Source: Gluconobacter sp. Dm-62 (lineage in GTDB: Bacteria; Pseudomonadota; Alphaproteobacteria; Acetobacterales; Acetobacteraceae). From it: a stretch of DNA of 64,000 bases. Of this stretch, positions 4,200-36,466 are shown in pieces. The stretch lies in contig NZ_JAERLY010000002.1 in the NCBI RefSeq assembly GCF_018256155.1, positions 372,001 through 436,000 on the forward strand, read 5' to 3'. The number at the start of each line of letters is the position of its first letter. The first letter of the stretch is position 1. Both the position numbers and the translations under genes were made by a program. The notes beneath the pieces were generated by a model. It was not told where the DNA came from and searched no databases. It saw only the letters and a program-made list of their open reading frames with translations.

Positions 4200-5390
4200 G
4201 TGTGCAAACGGCATGTGACGAAGACGTTGAAAAAAACTCTCCCAGTTCTCCTTTCCCTTCTCGGGGTGGCCCTGTTCACCTTCATTGCGGCCAAAGCGGG
4301 TATTCATCCCGTCATGGAAGCGCTTTCCAAAGTCGGCGTTGGTGGCTTCCTGCTTCTCGCGGCCTTCCAACTCCTGATCGACATCGGTCTTGGAATTGCA
4401 TGGCATGCTGCGGTTCCCATTCTTGGTATGAAACGCCTCATGGGCGCACGCCTCGTTCGTGACAGTGCGGGAGCCTGCCTGCCGTTCTCTCAGCTCGGCG
4501 GCATGGTCATTGGAGTGCGTGCCACACTGGCCGGCGTTGATCCAAGAACCGAAGAAGGCGAAGAACTTCACTGGCCAGAAGGTGTCGCAGCCAATCTGGT
4601 GGACATCACGACGGAGGTTCTGGGGCAGATTGCTTTTGTTCTGATCGCGCTACTCTGTCTTGTCGGTCATCACGGCGCAGCCAGATTTTTTTGGCCACTC
4701 ATCGGCGGTATGGCGCTTCTGAGCGTTGGAATTTCTGGTTTTATCTGGACCCAGCAGCGTGGCGGCGCGATGATACGCAAGGTCGCCATGTTCCTGGGAC
4801 GCCATATCGCGTCTGAGTGGCGTAACGCGCTGATCGGGAATACTGACGCCTTCCAATCCCGGCTTGAGAGCCTTTGGAGCCGTCCGGATCGCATTTCCCT
4901 TGGAGCGTTCTGTCACCTGGTATGCTGGATGGGTAGTGCTGCCATGACGTGGCTGGCGCTTCAGCTCTTGGGCGCGCATGTCGGATTTTTCTCATCCGTC
5001 GCCATTGAGGGTGTGGTCTGCGGTATCATGTCGGCGGGTTTTCTTGTCCCTGGAGCACTGGGTGTGCAGGAAGCGGCCTATGTCGCATTGGGCATGATTT
5101 TCGGTATCGATGCGGAAATCTCCCTTAGTCTTTCCCTGCTGCGACGTGGGCGCGACATTCTAATCGGCATCCCGGTTCTGCTGGTCTGGCAGTTCATTGA
5201 AATGCGTCGGCTTCGACATGAGCGTCCTGCATCGGTCGCGAAGAGTGAGCCTCCTCCTGCTCCGGCCCGCATGAATGTCATCGCCCCCGCGGTGACTGCT
5301 CTGGCCGGTAATATCAAGAAAGAGGCAACGTCCCGCGACGGAAAGAAGTCCGGGGATAATTCCTTCGCAGCAGCGCCAAAAGTCCTATGA
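4200..5390 (+). CDS. HpnL-like integral membrane protein (flippase-like, LPG synthase TM family)
   Basis: About 390 residues with seven or eight hydrophobic segments (for example LPVLLSLLGVALFTFIAA at the N-terminus, IAFVLIALLCLVG, VCGIMSAGFLVPGALG) and a charged tail of roughly 60 residues. The pattern fits the lysylphosphatidylglycerol-synthase transmembrane family that includes HpnL of hopanoid clusters, and it sits divergently from hpnA. The start is uncertain: GTG at 4200 or GTG at 4215 are both possible and neither has a clear ribosome site. Its stop overlaps the tyrA start in ATGA, so the two are likely co-translated. Transport substrate unknown. Confidence 0.7.
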   Translation: MCKRHVTKTLKKTLPVLLSLLGVALFTFIAAKAGIHPVMEALSKVGVGGFLLLAAFQLLIDIGLGIAWHAAVPILGMKRLMGARLVRDSAGACLPFSQLGGMVIGVRATLAGVDPRTEEGEELHWPEGVAANLVDITTEVLGQIAFVLIALLCLVGHHGAARFFWPLIGGMALLSVGISGFIWTQQRGGAMIRKVAMFLGRHIASEWRNALIGNTDAFQSRLESLWSRPDRISLGAFCHLVCWMGSAAMTWLALQLLGAHVGFFSSVAIEGVVCGIMSAGFLVPGALGVQEAAYVALGMIFGIDAEISLSLSLLRRGRDILIGIPVLLVWQFIEMRRLRHERPASVAKSEPPPAPARMNVIAPAVTALAGNIKKEATSRDGKKSGDNSFAAAPKVL

Positions 5391-7183
5391 CACCCCTCTT
5401 CCGGTCTCTCGCAGTTGTCGGCCCCGGCCTGATTGGCTCATCTGTCCTTCGTCGGGCCCGCGAGACAGGCGTAATTGCCGAAACCCTAATTGCGGCTGAT
5501 TCGAACCCTCATGTTCTCAAGCGGGTTCTCGAACTTGGCATTGCGGATGTCACGACGTCCGACCTTGCCGTTGCTGCGCAGGCGGACTGCGTCATGATCT
5601 GCGTGCCCGTTGGCGCTGTGGAGGCAGTTGCCCGGAAACTCCTCCCGCATATGAGGCCCGGGAGCATTCTGACGGATGTTGCTTCCGTGCGAGGACAGCT
5701 AGGCCCGACGCTTCAGGCAATTCTGCCCGAGAATGTTGCATATGTTCCGGGGCATCCGATGGCTGGAACCGAGCATTCAGGGCCGGATGCCGGTTTTTCA
5801 ACCCTTTTTGAGAATCGCTGGGCGTTGCTGGTGCCTCCCGAGGGGGCGAACCCTGATGCGGTTACCACAATCGAGAAGCTTTGGACGCTGTGCGGAGCCA
5901 GAACGAAAATTCTGTCGGATGAAAAGCACGACAGGATCTGCGCCATGGTCAGCCATCTGCCCCATCTTCTGGCATTCACGATCTGCGATACTGCTGACAA
6001 TCTGTCTGAAGAAATTCGTGCTGCCGTTCTGGACTATGCTGCGTCTGGGTTTCGGGATTTTACACGGATTGCAGCTTCGGACCCTGTCATGTGGCGGGAT
6101 ATTTTCCTCGCCAATCGGGAGGCGCTTCTGGGGACGCTCGACAAGTTCGTCGCTGACACACAGGCAATGGCCGATGCTATCCGAACTGGTGACGAGGCAG
6201 CCATTACAAGTCGGATAGAGCGCGGACGCGCCATCCGCCGGACTCTTATCGAGAACCGCCAGGCCTTATTTTCAGGCTGTGACGACCCGCAGGGTATTCG
6301 TGCTGCCGGAATGACCATAGGGCAATCCAGCCAGAACGAGCACCCGGTCCCCGGTCTTGCAGAAGCCCATGCTGCGCGCGAGTTCAGCGGCTGGGCCAGC
6401 AAGATCTTCAATACCATGGGCGGTCTGTTCACGATCCACCACATGCGGGAATGTTCCCCACACAACGCAGAGGCGCCGTGCGACGTCCAGTTCCGGTGTC
6501 AGGGCGATAATCGGGCAATGGGGCCGCTCCCGGGCCATACGCATCGCGCCACCGCCGCTGCGGGTGTGGGATGCAATGGCACCTGCGTGCAGCGTGCTGC
6601 TGACCTGCCATGCTGCCTGAACGATTGCGCACTGAACGGTTTCGTCCGGTACCGGACGCAGGCGGTCCATACGGATGCGCCATTCGTGATCCTGCTCGAC
6701 CCGCTCTGCAATCCGCACCATCATAGACACGGCTTCCAGAGGATACTTTCCTGCGGCGCTTTCCGCAGAAAGCATGACTGCATCCGCGCCATCATAAACG
6801 GCGTTGGACACGTCAGAGACTTCGGCCCGTGTCGGGGTCGGGCTCTCAATCATGCTCTCCAGCATCTGCGTCGCCACGATCACCGGGCGGCACTGCTTTC
6901 GGGCTTCGGCAATCGCGCGCTTCTGCGCAACCGGAACTTCCTCAGGCGGCAGTTCCACGCCCAGATCGCCACGCGCCACCATGATCGCATCCGACAGATG
7001 CACAATGGCAGCCAGATCATCCATCGCCTGCGGCTTTTCGAGCTTGGTCACGATCGCCGCACGACCGGCTGCAATCTCGCGGGCTTCCCGAACATCTTCG
7101 GGGCGCTGGACGAACGAAAGCGCCACAAAATCCACGCCAAGCGACAGCGCGAAGTCGAAATCACGGCGATCTTTTTCAGTTAG
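5387..7183 (+). CDS. tyrA: Prephenate/arogenate dehydrogenase TyrA, reading frame with no normal stop
   Basis: Residues 1 to about 295 (to about 6275) are a complete TyrA: NAD-binding VVGPGLIGSS, the DVASVRG loop, HPMAGTEHSG and the SHLPHLLAF helix. It oxidatively decarboxylates prephenate or arogenate in tyrosine synthesis. The usual family length is about 290-310 residues. Here no stop follows, and the frame continues another 300 codons exactly antisense to pyk. That extension is His/Arg/Cys-rich and shows no domain I recognise, so I regard it as a shadow of pyk rather than a functional domain. A missing stop from a point change or small indel, or a true long tail, are both possible. Starts in an ATGA overlap with the preceding gene. 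Confidence 0.85.
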   Translation: MTPLFRSLAVVGPGLIGSSVLRRARETGVIAETLIAADSNPHVLKRVLELGIADVTTSDLAVAAQADCVMICVPVGAVEAVARKLLPHMRPGSILTDVASVRGQLGPTLQAILPENVAYVPGHPMAGTEHSGPDAGFSTLFENRWALLVPPEGANPDAVTTIEKLWTLCGARTKILSDEKHDRICAMVSHLPHLLAFTICDTADNLSEEIRAAVLDYAASGFRDFTRIAASDPVMWRDIFLANREALLGTLDKFVADTQAMADAIRTGDEAAITSRIERGRAIRRTLIENRQALFSGCDDPQGIRAAGMTIGQSSQNEHPVPGLAEAHAAREFSGWASKIFNTMGGLFTIHHMRECSPHNAEAPCDVQFRCQGDNRAMGPLPGHTHRATAAAGVGCNGTCVQRAADLPCCLNDCALNGFVRYRTQAVHTDAPFVILLDPLCNPHHHRHGFQRILSCGAFRRKHDCIRAIINGVGHVRDFGPCRGRALNHALQHLRRHDHRAALLSGFGNRALLRNRNFLRRQFHAQIATRHHDRIRQMHNGSQIIHRLRLFELGHDRRTTGCNLAGFPNIFGALDERKRHKIHAKRQREVEITAIFFS

Positions 7184-30426: not shown

Positions 30427-31263
30427 TCAGCCGGCAATGAACGACAGGATATCGGCATTGATAACGTCTGCATGTGTTGTGTGCATGCCATGCGGGTAGC
30501 CGGGATAGATCTTCAGCGTGCTGTTCTGAAGCAGCTTGTCCTGAAGAATTGCCGCATTCTTGTAAGGCACGACCTGATCATCATCGCCCTGCAGCACAAG
30601 TGTCGGTACGGTGATGGCTTTCAGGTCTTCCGTCTGGTCAGTTTCGGAGAACGCTTTAATCCCTTCATAATGAGCCTTGGCACTTCCCGTCATGCCCTGG
30701 CGCCACCAGTTGCGGATCGTCCCTTCGGAAATCTCGGCGCCAGAGCGGTTGAAACCGTAGAACGGACCTGTGGGGACATCGAGAAAGAACTGCGCCCGAT
30801 TAGCTGCCAGTCCGGCGCGCAGTCGATCAAGCACTTCGATCGGGGCGCCTTCAGGGCTGCGCTCTGTCTGCACCATCAGAGGTGGAACTGCACTGATAAG
30901 TACAGCTTTGGCGACACGTCCCTGAGGCTGCCCATATTTTGCGACATAGCGGGCCACCTGTCCGCCGCCTGTTGAATGCCCAACATGGATGGCGTTTTTC
31001 AGATCAAGATGCTCGACGACAGCCGAAGTATCGGCCGCGTAATGGTCCATGTCATGACCGTCACTCACCTGTGTCGAGCGTCCATGACCGCGGCGGTCAT
31101 GCGCAATGACGCGAAACCCCTTGCTCAGAAAGAACAGCATCTGCGCATCCCAGTCATCGGCACTCAGCGGCCATCCATGATGGAAAACAATTGGCTGGGC
31201 ATCCTTTGGCCCCCAGTCCTTGTAGAAAATCTCTACGCCATCAGATGTCGTGACGAAGGGCAT
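30427..31263 (-). CDS. Alpha/beta hydrolase (non-heme chloroperoxidase-like)
   Basis: About 278 residues. The catalytic triad is visible: GHSTGGG (Ser), LQGDDDQVVP (Asp) and the C-terminal YPHGMHTTH (His), with HHGWPLSADDW at the oxyanion hole. This is the cofactor-free haloperoxidase/esterase group. The ATG at 31263 has AGGAGA 6 bases upstream. Its promoter at 31302-31332 has a 19-bp spacer covered by a perfect MerR-type dyad, and the MerR gene lies divergently right beside it. Confidence 0.88.
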   Translation of the reverse strand: MPFVTTSDGVEIFYKDWGPKDAQPIVFHHGWPLSADDWDAQMLFFLSKGFRVIAHDRRGHGRSTQVSDGHDMDHYAADTSAVVEHLDLKNAIHVGHSTGGGQVARYVAKYGQPQGRVAKAVLISAVPPLMVQTERSPEGAPIEVLDRLRAGLAANRAQFFLDVPTGPFYGFNRSGAEISEGTIRNWWRQGMTGSAKAHYEGIKAFSETDQTEDLKAITVPTLVLQGDDDQVVPYKNAAILQDKLLQNSTLKIYPGYPHGMHTTHADVINADILSFIAG

Positions 31264-31301
31264 GGTACTTCTCCTGCGCATTTAGAACTGATATTGCTCA
31301 G

Positions 31302-31332
31302 ACGCTAACGTTGAACATAAGTTCAACGTCAA
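31302..31332 (-). promoter_or_regulatory. MerR-type promoter P1 with perfect dyad (hydrolase gene)
   Basis: On the minus strand: -35 TTGACG (31332-31327), a 19-base spacer and -10 TAGCGT (31307-31302). The spacer is almost filled by the inverted repeat ACGTTGAAC-N4-GTTCAACGT (31308-31329). A 19-bp spacer with a central dyad is the hallmark of MerR-activated promoters. Confidence 0.8.
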
Positions 31333-31358
31333 GATGAATTTACAATAGAAGACTGAAG

Positions 31359-31868
31359 ATGAAGATTGGAGATCTAGCCCGGAAAACCGGTCTTGCGACG
31401 TCTAAAATCCGGTTTTATGAGCGCATCGGACTGTTGAAAACGGTCGATCGTCGTCCCAATGGCTACCGGACCTATCCACCGCAGGCCGTGATGATCCTGG
31501 GCCTCATTACAACGGCGCAGCGAGCGGGATTTGCGCTGGACGAAATCCGCGTCTTACTGCCCTCTGATCTGGCACATTGGGATCATACCGCACTGATGGA
31601 CGCTCTGACTCGCAAGGTGGCGGATATTGAAGCCCTTCAGGCTCGCCTGGCCCAGAGCAAGATTCATCTGCTTCACCTGATCGAAGATATTCAGGCACGG
31701 CCTGCTGACATGGACTGTGCAACCAATGCCCATCGTGTCCTGACAAATATCATTACAGAGCCTCCCGAAGACCTGACCGTCACTTCAGACGATATACGCC
31801 TTCTGGACAAGACAGACCGCCGCCAGTCGGTAAATTCAGGCCCACGTAAAAAGGCTGCCCTCCCTTAA
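31359..31868 (+). CDS. MerR-family transcriptional activator
   Basis: A 169-residue MerR protein: the winged HTH is IGDLARKTGLATSKIRFYERIGLL and the second helix part NGYRTYPPQAV, followed by a coiled-coil dimer helix and a short tail with only one cysteine (DMDCATN). It lacks the SoxR four-cysteine cluster and the metal-binding cysteines of MerR or CueR, so the signal is more likely an organic electrophile. It lies divergently from the hydrolase and shares its operator. Its stop overlaps the DJ-1 gene stop (TTAA) convergently. Confidence 0.88.
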   Translation: MKIGDLARKTGLATSKIRFYERIGLLKTVDRRPNGYRTYPPQAVMILGLITTAQRAGFALDEIRVLLPSDLAHWDHTALMDALTRKVADIEALQARLAQSKIHLLHLIEDIQARPADMDCATNAHRVLTNIITEPPEDLTVTSDDIRLLDKTDRRQSVNSGPRKKAALP

Positions 31869-32557
31869 GATCGTCCCAGAAGAGCTACGACTTTCGCTGC
31901 TGTCGCTCTGGCAGAAAAAGGGTTCTGTCCCGTCACCAGTCGTCCATCCGTCACGACATGAGACATGAACGGCAGGATTGCCTTTTCATATATCGCGCTC
32001 CGTGCCTTCACCTGCGCTTCCGCATTATAGGGGACCTCCCGCGCGACACCCGCCAGTCTCTCCTCGGTCCATGAAAAACCGGTGATCTTTCGTCCGCAGA
32101 CCAGAAAAGAGCTATCTGCAAGTCGGGTGTTCAGAAGCCCGCAGTAACCGTGACAGACAGCGGACACGATGCCGCCCTTTTCCCAGATTGCCCTGGTGAT
32201 GCTCTGAACACCTTCACTGTCCGGAAAGTCCCACATCACACCGTGCCCCCCGGTAAAGTAGATCGCGTCATACTCCTCGGGTCGTACATCATCAGGACTC
32301 CGCGTAGAGTCCAGTAAGGCCATTTTCGCCGGATCGTTTAGCCAGTCCTTGGCCGACTGATCGCACATGGGCCATTTCAAAGCTTTGGGCTCAAGTGGAA
32401 CCTTCCCGCCCCGGGGACTGACAATGTGTTGTTCATACCCCTCAGCGGCGAACACATCCCAGGCATGTGTAAGTTCCGATAGCCACAACCCGGTAGGATG
32501 CACTGGACTGTCGAAATGAGCGATGTTGGTGGCAGCGTGAAGGATACGGCGGTTCAT
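31865..32557 (-). CDS. DJ-1/PfpI-family protein (Hsp31-like)
   Basis: A 230-residue class I glutamine-amidotransferase-fold protein. The nucleophile elbow is SAVCHGYCGLL (Cys of the family), with IYFTGGHGVMWDFP before it. Members act as glyoxalase III-type or chaperone-like enzymes against reactive carbonyls. Its promoter (32600-32630) has the same 19-bp-spacer MerR architecture as the hydrolase gene, so it is probably in the same regulon. Convergent with merR. Confidence 0.85.
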   Translation of the reverse strand: MNRRILHAATNIAHFDSPVHPTGLWLSELTHAWDVFAAEGYEQHIVSPRGGKVPLEPKALKWPMCDQSAKDWLNDPAKMALLDSTRSPDDVRPEEYDAIYFTGGHGVMWDFPDSEGVQSITRAIWEKGGIVSAVCHGYCGLLNTRLADSSFLVCGRKITGFSWTEERLAGVAREVPYNAEAQVKARSAIYEKAILPFMSHVVTDGRLVTGQNPFSARATAAKVVALLGRS

Positions 32558-32599
32558 GACTAGCCCCTTTCGTGTGGCAGGGTACTCACCCCCCTTCCT

Positions 32600-32630
32600 G
32601 CTGTAACGTTTGAGCCTACTTTAAGGTCAA
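32600..32630 (-). promoter_or_regulatory. MerR-type promoter P2 (DJ-1/PfpI gene)
   Basis: Minus strand: -35 TTGACC (32630-32625), 19-base spacer, -10 TACAGC (32605-32600). The -35 side TTGAC-N-TTAAA and the -10 side CAAACGTTA match P1 and P3. Confidence 0.7.
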
Positions 32631-32638
32631 GATGCTGT

Positions 32639-32669
32639 TTGACATTAAATCTGACTTCAACGTTAGGCT
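32639..32669 (+). promoter_or_regulatory. MerR-type promoter P3 (NAD(P)-binding protein gene)
   Basis: Plus strand: -35 TTGACA (32639-32644), 19-base spacer, -10 TAGGCT (32664-32669). The spacer ends TTCAACGT as in P1. It also shows that an ATG at 32632 lies upstream of transcription and cannot be the start. Confidence 0.75.
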
Positions 32670-32703
32670 GCATGTCCAACAGTCGACAGACAAGGCGAAG
32701 CAC

Positions 32704-33636
32704 ATGCAAACAATTCTGGGCGCGAACGGGCAGATCGCCACCGAACTGGCGCGAAGCCTACGTTATCATCATACGGATGAACTGCGGCTGGTGAGCCGCA
32801 ATCCCCGCAAGGTCAATGAAGATGACACCCTTATGGCGGCGGACCTTATGGACGCCCGGCAGACGATCGAAGCGGTGAAAGGCAGCCAGACCGTCTACTT
32901 CACCGCTGGCCTGCCTCCAGATAGCAGGCTTTGGGAAGAGCGGTTTCCGGTCATGCTGAAGAACGCCTTACAGGCATGCCGAACGGCGGGCGCCAGTTTT
33001 GCCTATTTCGACAATACGTACATGTATCCGCAGAACAGCCAGATCCAGACGGAGGAAACACGCTTCGCCCCGGTTGGCCGAAAAGGACGGGTGCGCGCCG
33101 CAATGGCCTCGATGGTGCTGGAAGAAATGGCCCGGGGAGAGATTCCTGTGCTCATCGCCCGTGCGCCGGAATTCTACGGCCCGGGGAAAACGCAGAGCTT
33201 CACCAACGCCCTGATTATCAACAGGCTGAAAGCTGGCAAAAAACCTCTGGTTCCTGTCCGTGACGATACGCGCCGGACCCTCATCTGGACGCCGGATGCA
33301 AGCCGTGCGCTGGCAACCCTGGGCAATACGCCGGATGCTTTTGGACAGACGTGGCATCTGCCCTGCTGTGATGATCGGCCGACCTATAAGACATTCGTCA
33401 CCATGGCGAGCGGGATTTTCGGTCGAACGCCTTCCTATTCGGTAATCGGCAAGTGGCTGCTGATCCTCGCAGGGGTTTTTTCAAAACAGGTGCGCGAGAT
33501 CAGAGAACTACTGCCCCGCTACGAGCAGGACAACTTCTTTGCCTCAACGAAATTCAAACGCCGTTTCCTCGAGTTTTCCGTGACGACATATGAAGAGGGG
33601 CTGGAACTGATCGGGAGGGAGCAGAAAGATCGATGA
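32704..33636 (+). CDS. NAD(P)-binding Rossmann protein, NmrA/epimerase-like
   Basis: About 310 residues. It begins QTILGANGQIATELARSL (nucleotide-binding GANGxIA) and has FAYFDNTYMYP in the position of the SDR active site. It resembles NAD-dependent epimerase/dehydratase-fold proteins of unknown substrate. The start at 32704 is fixed by promoter P3 upstream. Divergent from the DJ-1 gene, with back-to-back MerR-type promoters, so I infer co-induction. Confidence 0.82.
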   Translation: MQTILGANGQIATELARSLRYHHTDELRLVSRNPRKVNEDDTLMAADLMDARQTIEAVKGSQTVYFTAGLPPDSRLWEERFPVMLKNALQACRTAGASFAYFDNTYMYPQNSQIQTEETRFAPVGRKGRVRAAMASMVLEEMARGEIPVLIARAPEFYGPGKTQSFTNALIINRLKAGKKPLVPVRDDTRRTLIWTPDASRALATLGNTPDAFGQTWHLPCCDDRPTYKTFVTMASGIFGRTPSYSVIGKWLLILAGVFSKQVREIRELLPRYEQDNFFASTKFKRRFLEFSVTTYEEGLELIGREQKDR

Positions 33637-33871: not shown

Positions 33872-34471
33872 TTACTGCTCTTTCTTGAATACATCCTGGA
33901 AGATGAGCGGCCCCCAGACGCGGCCACGTGCATGGACCAATGCGCCACCTTCGCTGAGCTTTCCCAGGTTAACGGGAGCGAACCCGAGTTCTCTGGCCAA
34001 GGCCGCGACAGGTGCGATCGCATCATTATTGTCGCTCGACAGAAAGACGACCCGATGGCCGCCTTCGACGATCGCATCAGTGGCCAAGGTAGCTGCAATC
34101 AGGTGGTTGAACCCTTTCACGTAATTGGCTCCGGTGAACGCCTTCGCGGCGTATGGGGAAGAGAGGAGACCGTCCATCTCTTCAAGAGGCGCCAACGAAT
34201 TCATCGCGTCGATGACAGTCTTGCCTTGCCAGGTCGGGAGGATCTTCGCTACCTCGCCATGCTGCTCGAACGGAACTGCCAGAATGACGGTATCGGCTTG
34301 CACCGCGTCCTGTAGCGAGGTTGCGATGACCGTCGGCCCAATCGCTCGAGCCTGCGGCGTCAGGACTTCAGGGGACTGACGATTTGCAACAGACACCGGG
34401 ATATTTTTACGGACGAAGGCATGAGCGAGGGCTTGCCCAATTCTGCCAAAACCTATGATCGCGTAACTCAT
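33872..34471 (-). CDS. NADPH-dependent F420-reductase-like protein
   Basis: A 199-residue dinucleotide-binding protein of the F420-dependent NADP reductase family. MSYAIIGFGRIGQAL is the Rossmann start, then NRQSPEVL, ILAVPFEQH and KTVIDAMNSL. Such proteins are common as short NADP oxidoreductases outside F420-using bacteria, so true F420 use is doubtful. It lies 89 bases after the SDR gene on the same strand and may share a transcript. Confidence 0.8.
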   Translation of the reverse strand: MSYAIIGFGRIGQALAHAFVRKNIPVSVANRQSPEVLTPQARAIGPTVIATSLQDAVQADTVILAVPFEQHGEVAKILPTWQGKTVIDAMNSLAPLEEMDGLLSSPYAAKAFTGANYVKGFNHLIAATLATDAIVEGGHRVVFLSSDNNDAIAPVAALARELGFAPVNLGKLSEGGALVHARGRVWGPLIFQDVFKKEQ

Positions 34472-34559
34472 TGTCGTATTTCCAATTTTTGTTCACGGGA
34501 ATATCGCAGAAAGTGGGAAGCGTTCAGCAGCGAACGCGTCCCACTCTTCGGTAGTGGGC

Positions 34560-35294
34560 TCAGATGGCCGAGAAGCCCCCATCGACACAGAGCTCCATTC
34601 CGTTCACGAAGCTCGATGCCTCTGAAGCCAGAAACAGCGCGGCAGTGGCAATTTCCTCAGGGCGGCCCATCGTTCCTCGCGGGATAAGGGATTCGAACAT
34701 CTGCTTGGCTTCCGGGGTCAGAACCTGATCCTGCATCGGTGTGGCAATCGGCCCTGGATGCAGCACGTTCACCCGTATATTTCTGGTTTTCAGCTCGTTG
34801 AGCCATCCGCGAGCGAAGGCATGCAGTGTCGCCTTGCTCGCTGCATATACGCTGTAGCCTGGAAAACCTTTGATCGCCGCAACAGAGCCGGTCATGAAGA
34901 TCGACCCACCGTCGTTGAACAGCGGCAGCGCCTTTTGGACCGTGAACAGCGTACCACGTACATTCAGGTTGAAGGTCGTGTCGAAGTGCTGCTCGGTAAT
35001 CTCACCCAAGGGGAGGGCTTCGCCTGTGCCTGCACTGGCATACAGAATGTCGATCTTGCCCTTTTCACGTTTGACCGTCTCGAAGAGACGGTCAAGGTCA
35101 TCAAGGCTGGCCGCATCGCCGCGCACGCCCGTTACGTTTCGGCCGATTTGTCTAACGGCCTCGTCCAGCGTTTCCTGTCTCCGTCCCGTGATGAAAACAT
35201 AAGCTCCTTCTTCAACGAATAGCTTAGCGCTCGCCAGTGCCATGCCGCTTGATCCACCCGTAATGACGGCGACTTTACCTTCAAGCTTTCCCAT
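34560..35294 (-). CDS. SDR-family oxidoreductase
   Basis: A 244-residue SDR of the FabG-like group. The cofactor motif is ITGGSSGMALAS, with Ala in place of the last glycine, a variant seen in this subgroup, then NLNVRGTLF, active-site YAASK and the C-terminal GRPEEIATAALFLASEASSFVNG. Divergent from the LysR gene at 35570, which probably regulates it. Substrate unknown. Confidence 0.88.
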   Translation of the reverse strand: MGKLEGKVAVITGGSSGMALASAKLFVEEGAYVFITGRRQETLDEAVRQIGRNVTGVRGDAASLDDLDRLFETVKREKGKIDILYASAGTGEALPLGEITEQHFDTTFNLNVRGTLFTVQKALPLFNDGGSIFMTGSVAAIKGFPGYSVYAASKATLHAFARGWLNELKTRNIRVNVLHPGPIATPMQDQVLTPEAKQMFESLIPRGTMGRPEEIATAALFLASEASSFVNGMELCVDGGFSAI

Positions 35295-35569
35295 GAGTTT
35301 TCTTCCTGAGTTTGTCTGTGGTTGATCGGGAGATGTCCCGTATCATTCAAAGTGGAGTGGCTCTTGTCGAAGGACGAGTGCGCAACCGCGCATATCGGTG
35401 GTGCGGAATCGATCCGGTCTTTTAATTGACGCCGACCGAATGCTCGGGCCTTACTGGCTAGAAGACAACGAGAATACTCTCTTTGCTTATTAAGATCGCA
35501 TGATGTTCAGGAGTGTGACGTGTCGAGTATGGTCTTAAAAAGACCTGCCTTGCGGTGCCAGGACGCACC

Positions 35570-36466
35570 ATGATCGACTGGGATGACGTCCGTTATTTTT
35601 TAGCAGTCGCGCGGGGTGGTTCGGTCAGGGCTGCAGCCAGTCTCCTGAAGGTCAATCACTCGACAGTGCTGCGTCGTATCGCTCAACTTGAAGAGCGCCT
35701 TGGGGCGCAGATGTTCGAGAAGCTACCTTCGGGCTACCGCCTGACTTTGGCGGGGGATGAGATCATTGAGTTCGCGACCCAGATGGAAGCGTCTTCTCAT
35801 CAGTTGGAGACACGCGTTCTTGGCCGTGACCAGAGCGTACGTGGACTTTTGCGAGTGACGTTGCCACCGTTCTTTGCGACCCATCTTCTGATGCCGGATC
35901 TCGCGGAGTTTGCTCGCCTGCACCCGGATATCGAGATGGATGTCGTGCCAACAGGCGCGGTCGCCAACCTGACTAATCGGGAAGCTGACATCGCCATCCG
36001 CATCGTGCTGGACCGTAACACGCTGCCTCTCAATCTTCACGGTTTGATCGGCCCTGTCTTATCCAGTGGCATCTATATGTCTCGCGATCTCCTGGCCTCG
36101 TGGCGCTCGGAGATGCCAGCCTCCATGCGCTGGATCGTCACAAATACGGATGGACGTCCTGGATGGGCTCATGACGGAGAAGTTCGCACCAAAGGAGCTC
36201 TGTTTAGGACACCGGACTCTGAAACGCAGATTATTGCCGTGCAACAGGGGATCGGGATGACGAAGCTTCCGTGCTTCGTGGGTGACGCGGACCCTCTGCT
36301 GGTCAGGGTTCCGGGCACCGAGTTGTATGGCCACGGAACGCTGTGGCTTTTAACTCAGGGAGAGACACGCAATACAAAACGCGTGAGGCTCTTTGCCGAG
36401 TTTATATCCCGGAGGCTTGTGGTCCATGCTGCGCTTCTCGCGGGCACTTCCTCATCGAGCAATTGA
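35570..36466 (+). CDS. LysR-family transcriptional regulator
   Basis: About 298 residues: HTH WDDVRYFLAVARGGSVRAAASLLKVNHSTVLRRIAQLEE, effector domain from RGLLRVTLPPFFATHLL. I start at MIDWDDV (35570); 35555 is also open. It faces the SDR gene 34560-35294 across a 275-base gap and is the likely regulator of it and of the following F420-reductase-like gene. Effector unknown. Confidence 0.86.
   Translation: MIDWDDVRYFLAVARGGSVRAAASLLKVNHSTVLRRIAQLEERLGAQMFEKLPSGYRLTLAGDEIIEFATQMEASSHQLETRVLGRDQSVRGLLRVTLPPFFATHLLMPDLAEFARLHPDIEMDVVPTGAVANLTNREADIAIRIVLDRNTLPLNLHGLIGPVLSSGIYMSRDLLASWRSEMPASMRWIVTNTDGRPGWAHDGEVRTKGALFRTPDSETQIIAVQQGIGMTKLPCFVGDADPLLVRVPGTELYGHGTLWLLTQGETRNTKRVRLFAEFISRRLVVHAALLAGTSSSSN

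Follow-up and report, generated by a model that had tools for sequence, protein, structure and literature searches.

Four genes at 30427-33636 of the window, the 64,000-nucleotide stretch of Gluconobacter DNA analyzed here, are predicted to form a small regulon in which one MerR-type regulator acts through three promoters of like architecture. Comparison across genomes makes it very probable both that these genes are the ones controlled and that this regulator controls them. The cluster consists of a gene for an alpha/beta hydrolase of the non-heme chloroperoxidase/arylesterase family (30427..31263, minus strand; domain and homology matches), the regulator gene, here called merR (31359..31868, plus strand), a gene for a DJ-1/PfpI protein (31865..32557, minus strand; domain and structure-relative matches), and a gene for an NAD(P)-binding epimerase-like protein (32704..33636, plus strand; domain matches). 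The regulator has 169 aa and a single cysteine, C120. The DJ-1/PfpI protein was nearest to 1u9c, 4p5p, and glyoxalase III/Hsp31 proteins, with alignment of the Glu and Cys-His positions that we take to be catalytic; the NAD(P)-binding protein had no sequence relative in the PDB at E 0.001. merR and the DJ-1 gene are convergent and their stop codons overlap at 31865-31868. NADP oxidoreductase-like, SDR, and LysR regulator genes lie beside the cluster at 33872-36466 and do not carry the cluster operator.

The three promoters named in the original prediction are present in the sequence, and P1, P2, and P3 alike have TTGACN and TA separated by 19 bases around a MerR-type operator. P1 (TTGACG-19-TAGCGT; 31302..31332, minus strand) is the predicted promoter/operator of the hydrolase gene, P2 (TTGACC-19-TACAGC; 32600..32630, minus strand) that of the DJ-1/PfpI gene, and P3 (TTGACA-19-TAGGCT; 32639..32669, plus strand) that of the NAD(P)-binding protein gene. 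P1 contains the perfect dyad that had been claimed for it, ACGTTGAAC-N4-GTTCAACGT, a 9-4-9 arrangement at 31308-31329. This dyad also lies directly 5' of merR, so merR is probably autoregulated. The dyads of P2 and P3 are imperfect, each with 6 of 9 half-site pairs when counted by hand; among the -10 hexamers (TAGCGT in P1, TACAGC in P2, TAGGCT in P3) that of P2 is weak. P2 and P3 are divergent and 8 bp apart. The dyad center falls 8 bases beyond the -35 element, and the published 22-bp MerR-type sites, as excerpted in PMC5045206, likewise have their dyad center 8 past the -35. The sites thus show the promoter layout of the MerR family, with a long spacer, the dyad inside it, and a fixed distance to the -35. 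Placement of the promoters also bears on the gene starts. The most likely start of the hydrolase is 31263 and not the first in-frame ATG (31281), which is roughly twelve bases away from the predicted transcription start site, and the NAD(P)-binding protein most likely starts at 32704 rather than at its first in-frame ATG (32632), which lies upstream of the P3 -35 element.

The earlier statement that a 19-bp spacer is diagnostic of MerR activation was too strong. Spacers of 19-20 bp are typical of MerR-family promoters in the part of PMC9909328 that was drawn on, and the bare spacing is not rare in the window. The bare rule TTGAC-N20-TANNNT matched P1 and P3 and missed P2, and two matches were reached by 6 of 100 shuffles; we therefore placed the weight on the operator sequence, the spacer alone proving little. 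The TTGACNTTRAA core occurs three times in the window compared to 0.12 expected, a number reached in 0/100 shuffles, and the longer motif with up to two mismatches likewise occurs three times (0.02 expected; no shuffle reached three). No ordinary promoter with a 16-18-bp spacer was detected at 31200-32800, which is weak evidence because just 0.8 were expected by chance. The proposed genome search was also carried out, with one correction to its pattern, where the gap given as N7 is actually N6 in the sequence. When the motif was run with up to three mismatches over the 3,463,426 bases of the own genome, the three cluster sites were the only matches besides the reading of P1 on the other strand, and reversed-pattern controls gave none.

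Arrangement and sites are shared by related bacteria. A contig scan of named genomes returned 14 loci, 11 of which, from four genera of acetic acid bacteria (L013-L023; three Acetobacter, three Komagataeibacter, four Gluconobacter, and one Novacetimonas), preserve the four genes in unchanged order together with every one of the three sites, giving 36 sites including those of the window. Two of the remaining three loci are from Hyphomonadaceae, each with merR and one site, and the third is a partial match without sites (L026). The mean frequency of the commonest base over the 12 intergenic regions was 0.92 for the P2 box, 0.90 for P3, and 0.88 for P1, against 0.79 and 0.77 in the flanks. The P1 box together with the next two bases (window 31300-31332) forms a stretch of 33 bases that is identical in 6 of 12 loci (the window, L013, L017, L021, L022, and L023, from Gluconobacter, Acetobacter, and Komagataeibacter) and differs in the other six. 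This split of P1 versions across genera suggests horizontal exchange of the cluster. In L021 (Acetobacter) the NAD gene was matched at 5354-6404 in two pieces that lie some 145 bases apart.

Presence and absence of the regulator and its sites agree closely. Within the genus, the regulator was found in 8 of 26 genomes (E <= 1e-20) and the sites (up to one mismatch) in the same eight, three in each; all 24 sites lie within about 1.4 kb of merR, the controls gave none, and none of the 18 genomes without merR has a site. A DJ-1 orthologue (at least 76% identity) is confined within the genus to these same eight genomes; beyond it, G158 has a distant copy and G167 a second one, each matching at 38%. 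The hydrolase is present in 17 of the 26 genomes. Among 150 genomes of the family, merR was detected in eight and exact sites in five; all 12 exact sites are beside merR, and the 142 genomes without a merR match have none. The weight matrix described below located sites in two of the three merR genomes that had no exact one (L129 and L131). The third, G025 (L133), has only a partial merR match and yielded no site by exact pattern or matrix.

In the 398 proteobacterial genomes of the phylum set, merR was detected in 21 (E <= 1e-22), and the exact pattern gave 32 sites in 24 genomes versus one for the reversed control. Exact sites were present in 20 of 21 genomes with merR versus 4 of 377 without it; the first figure is partly circular, because sites from 19 of the other 20 merR genomes were already known when the pattern was drawn up, and the second is not. 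G809, the remaining merR genome, lacks an exact match and has sites according to the matrix (L121). Two genomes with sites and no merR match at the threshold, G699 and G558, encode weaker homologs (40 and 38% identity) that have Cys119 as their single cysteine and are next to an old-yellow-enzyme (OYE) gene. The MerR protein near the site in G837 and G909 has two cysteines, and the site precedes a peroxiredoxin gene, an order that was read in L141. This locus (G837) has, at 829-1527, a near-identical operator followed by the peroxiredoxin gene and then the two-cysteine MerR gene; in L142 (G909) the site is the same and the MerR protein nearly so. The operator is thus not private to the single-cysteine subfamily, and the peroxiredoxin arrangement is possibly a related system with another sensor. 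A protein search at class level (385 genomes, E 1e-30) matched the own genome alone, and a plasmid search with the whole cluster returned 31 records, the best 20 of which match the hydrolase region only, at 60-80% identity.

A weight matrix built from 52 sites was run on 52 loci and recovered the operator in 40 of 42 merR loci, the exceptions being L072 and L133. Of the 24 merR loci whose own DNA had given no training site, 23 had an operator, although L098 is almost a duplicate of L073, a training locus, and the site counted for L111 is also that of L112. The 10 hydrolase copies away from merR (in nine loci, of 13 such copies listed) had no site by the matrix. Seven of these nine loci are from genomes without merR, and L106 and L107 are second copies in merR genomes. 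L109, the end of a contig that carries the G171 hydrolase gene, falls outside the 42 merR loci.

Sites stay with their genes when the loci are rearranged. L074 has sites ahead of the NAD gene and ahead of the hydrolase gene; L070 has them ahead of hydrolase, acetoacetate-decarboxylase-like (AADC-like), and dj1 genes, L073 ahead of OYE, AADC-like, and dj1 genes, and L116 ahead of the NAD gene. In L140 the site before the NAD gene is 4.8 kb from merR, and sites away from merR precede an OYE gene (L159) and AADC-like genes (L160, L161, and L162). G604 contributes two additional sites. More generally, distant relatives have kept the operator and rearranged or replaced its targets, which include genes for OYE-like reductase, AADC-like, DJ-1/Hsp31-like, esterase-like, and NAD-epimerase-like proteins. 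The nearest classified downstream gene of 91 site calls, a number that includes reverse readings of dyads, was OYE in 29 cases, merR in 14, dj1 in 11, AADC-like in 11, hyd in 5, and nad in 3, with none in 18. Of the 20 plasmid records found, 11 annotated ones were read, and in 10 of these 11 at least one of the same partner genes is beside merR; a coniferyl aldehyde dehydrogenase gene is annotated in 6 of the 11. Four further records without annotation at the locus were scanned for sites only. The exception among the 11, L072 from Pseudoalteromonas, lacks a recognizable operator, and its merR homolog neighbors a gene of the SelT/SelW/SelH family. L069, L070, L073, and L098, from Caballeronia, Burkholderia, and Paraburkholderia, carry merR in duplicate, surrounded by several operators.

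These comparisons bear out the original proposal of one MerR regulator with three like promoters. P2 and P3 could instead be mere lookalikes of P1, arisen by common descent or chance and run by something else; two further proteins with a MerR domain are encoded in the own genome, and the link of this regulator to P2 and P3 is a comparative one. That reading is hardly credible given that the presence or absence of sites agrees with merR in 26/26 genus genomes and that sites remain with their genes through rearrangement.

Membership of the regulator in the MerR family follows from its Pfam MerR_1, MerR, and MerR-DNA-bind matches, all above cut-off. Its modeled structure (mean pLDDT 79.7, 14 sequences) has a dimerization-type helix at 76-112 and a fold nearest to CadR, Tn501 MerR, and CueR. 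The protein matched 12 NCBIfam models and fell short of the curated cut-off in every case, including MerR (60.7 against 150.85 bits). Cysteines were counted in 64 homologous proteins, 60 of them distinct, leaving out the partial match of L133. C120 is kept in 60/60 distinct homologs and is the sole cysteine in 53/60, so the single cysteine of the original prediction, without a SoxR or two-cysteine metal signature, was confirmed and extended well beyond this genome. Four more distant MerR proteins were viewed apart; two have a single Cys119, and two have Cys111 and Cys121. According to the model, C120 opens a helix (120-133), and position 112 is Gln. A cysteine at the start of a helix tends to have higher reactivity.

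The SoxR class was rejected because one cysteine takes the place of the four-cysteine [2Fe-2S] motif and the score was 37.3 bits against a cut-off of 116.9. NmlR/AdhR was rejected as well, with Thr52 and Gln54 where that class has its cysteine at 52/54 and a score of 40.4 against 175 bits. The best NCBIfam match was CueR and the fold also points toward CadR, MerR, and CueR, so a metal sensor of this type was considered; it appears very improbable. The CueR score of 70.5 bits is below the equivalog cut-off of 147.4, only C120 is present of the two loop-end cysteines of the CueR, MerR, and CadR class, and the 11 annotated plasmid neighborhoods contain no annotated metal-efflux gene.

The mechanism that we propose begins with a regulator dimer that would bind the dyad between the -35 and -10 elements of P1, P2, and P3. 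As long as inducer is missing, a spacer of 19 bp would exceed what RNA polymerase can use, leaving expression off or low. C120 would then be modified by a reactive electrophile, for which unsaturated carbonyls, alpha-oxo carbonyls, and quinones are the likeliest candidates. The modified dimer would change shape, untwist the spacer, and switch on production of hydrolase, DJ-1/Hsp31-like protein, and NAD-dependent enzyme; the three induced products would remove or repair the damage. The untwisting step is taken over by analogy from the MerR family as excerpted in PMC9909328. The electrophile trigger is suggested by the gene content and the invariant C120, in that the combined presence of genes for unsaturated-carbonyl reductases, aldehyde dehydrogenase, and glyoxalase-like proteins favors reactive electrophiles as the signal. 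The original suggestion of reactive carbonyl or electrophile stress thus fits the wider target set, and the inducer itself we infer. For the full chain, a MerR activator with a lone thiol, C120, that senses reactive electrophiles and drives the three genes, we consider the chances evenly balanced.

Two other explanations retain the same regulon and differ in what is sensed. In the first, the inducer would be a hydrophobic or aromatic compound bound non-covalently at the same promoters' regulator, and C120, whose conservation could reflect a structural role, would not react. The OYE-like, aldehyde dehydrogenase, and AADC-like partners would also suit the breakdown of one compound class, and W74, invariant in the 14 closest proteins, is near the CueR position whose residue, in the partial account used, reaches into the pocket. 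Yet W74 is absent from some distant homologs that still have C120, and C120 is found in all 60, while the modeled regulator has no large ligand domain of the BmrR type; we judge non-covalent induction unlikely, though a serious contender. In the second, C120 would be oxidized by peroxides, peracids, or hypochlorite rather than sense carbonyls. The hydrolase belongs to the non-heme haloperoxidase/arylesterase family, whose members make peracids, and the peroxiredoxin gene of L141 is preceded by a near-identical operator. Against this, the commonest target elsewhere is the OYE-like reductase (29/91), and the aldehyde dehydrogenase and Hsp31-like genes nearby direct attention to carbonyls, making oxidant sensing unlikely. 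Electrophile sensing through C120 is the reading we prefer.

Relatives of the regulator were found in Alpha-, Beta-, and Gammaproteobacteria, so the system extends beyond the compact cluster originally described. They may represent an unnamed MerR subfamily in which the metal loop has been reduced to the reactive C120 and which serves as an electrophile sensor with a portable set of ene-reductase, Hsp31-like, esterase/perhydrolase, decarboxylase-like, and dehydrogenase genes; we hold this broader idea tentatively, at somewhat short of an even chance. The other half of the original description, a possibly undescribed regulon, is compatible with the open-access literature, in whose partly sampled titles and abstracts no description of the gene set or operator was found; the word "undescribed" stays unproven.

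Acetic acid bacteria meet aldehydes through their own oxidative metabolism, and regulator, operator, and targets offer one testable set in these organisms. If C120 is the sensor, the MerR metal loop can become a thiol sensor, a solution unlike that of NmlR/AdhR. The set also suggests that several enzyme families whose physiological function is unclear have a stress role in common, and it might be used as a compact biosensor for reactive carbonyls.

MerR regulons as such are well known, and the subfamily lacks the NmlR/AdhR, SoxR, and metal-sensor features that were tested. NemR is a TetR-type repressor that provides electrophile-responsive control of the OYE-type reductase NemA; the system proposed here would share with NemR/NemA the electrophile-responsive control of such a reductase, whereas its regulator is MerR-type and not TetR-type. 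Among MerR-type systems, YraA of Bacillus subtilis is presumably a member of the DJ-1/PfpI family. AdhR of that species controls adhA, yraC, and yraA, with YraA described as a cysteine proteinase, and the NmlR/AdhR subgroup has a conserved cysteine at 52/54, as excerpted in PMC4776306. NmlR/AdhR and the system described here are both MerR-type with an invariant cysteine, and NmlR/AdhR is linked in that excerpt to carbonyl stress and a small detoxification regulon; the regulator described here differs in that its cysteine is C-terminal (C120) rather than at 52/54 and its partner enzymes are others. SoxR, a MerR-type redox regulator, has four cysteines (119, 122, 124, and 130) in the portion of PMC9909328 consulted, compared to one here. 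CueR has loop cysteines at 112 and 120 in the same portion of PMC9909328. With CueR, Tn501 MerR, and CadR, as far as these partial accounts go, the regulator shares the fold, the long spacer, the operator position, and the second loop cysteine, and it differs from them in that the first loop cysteine is absent and no metal-handling genes are annotated nearby.
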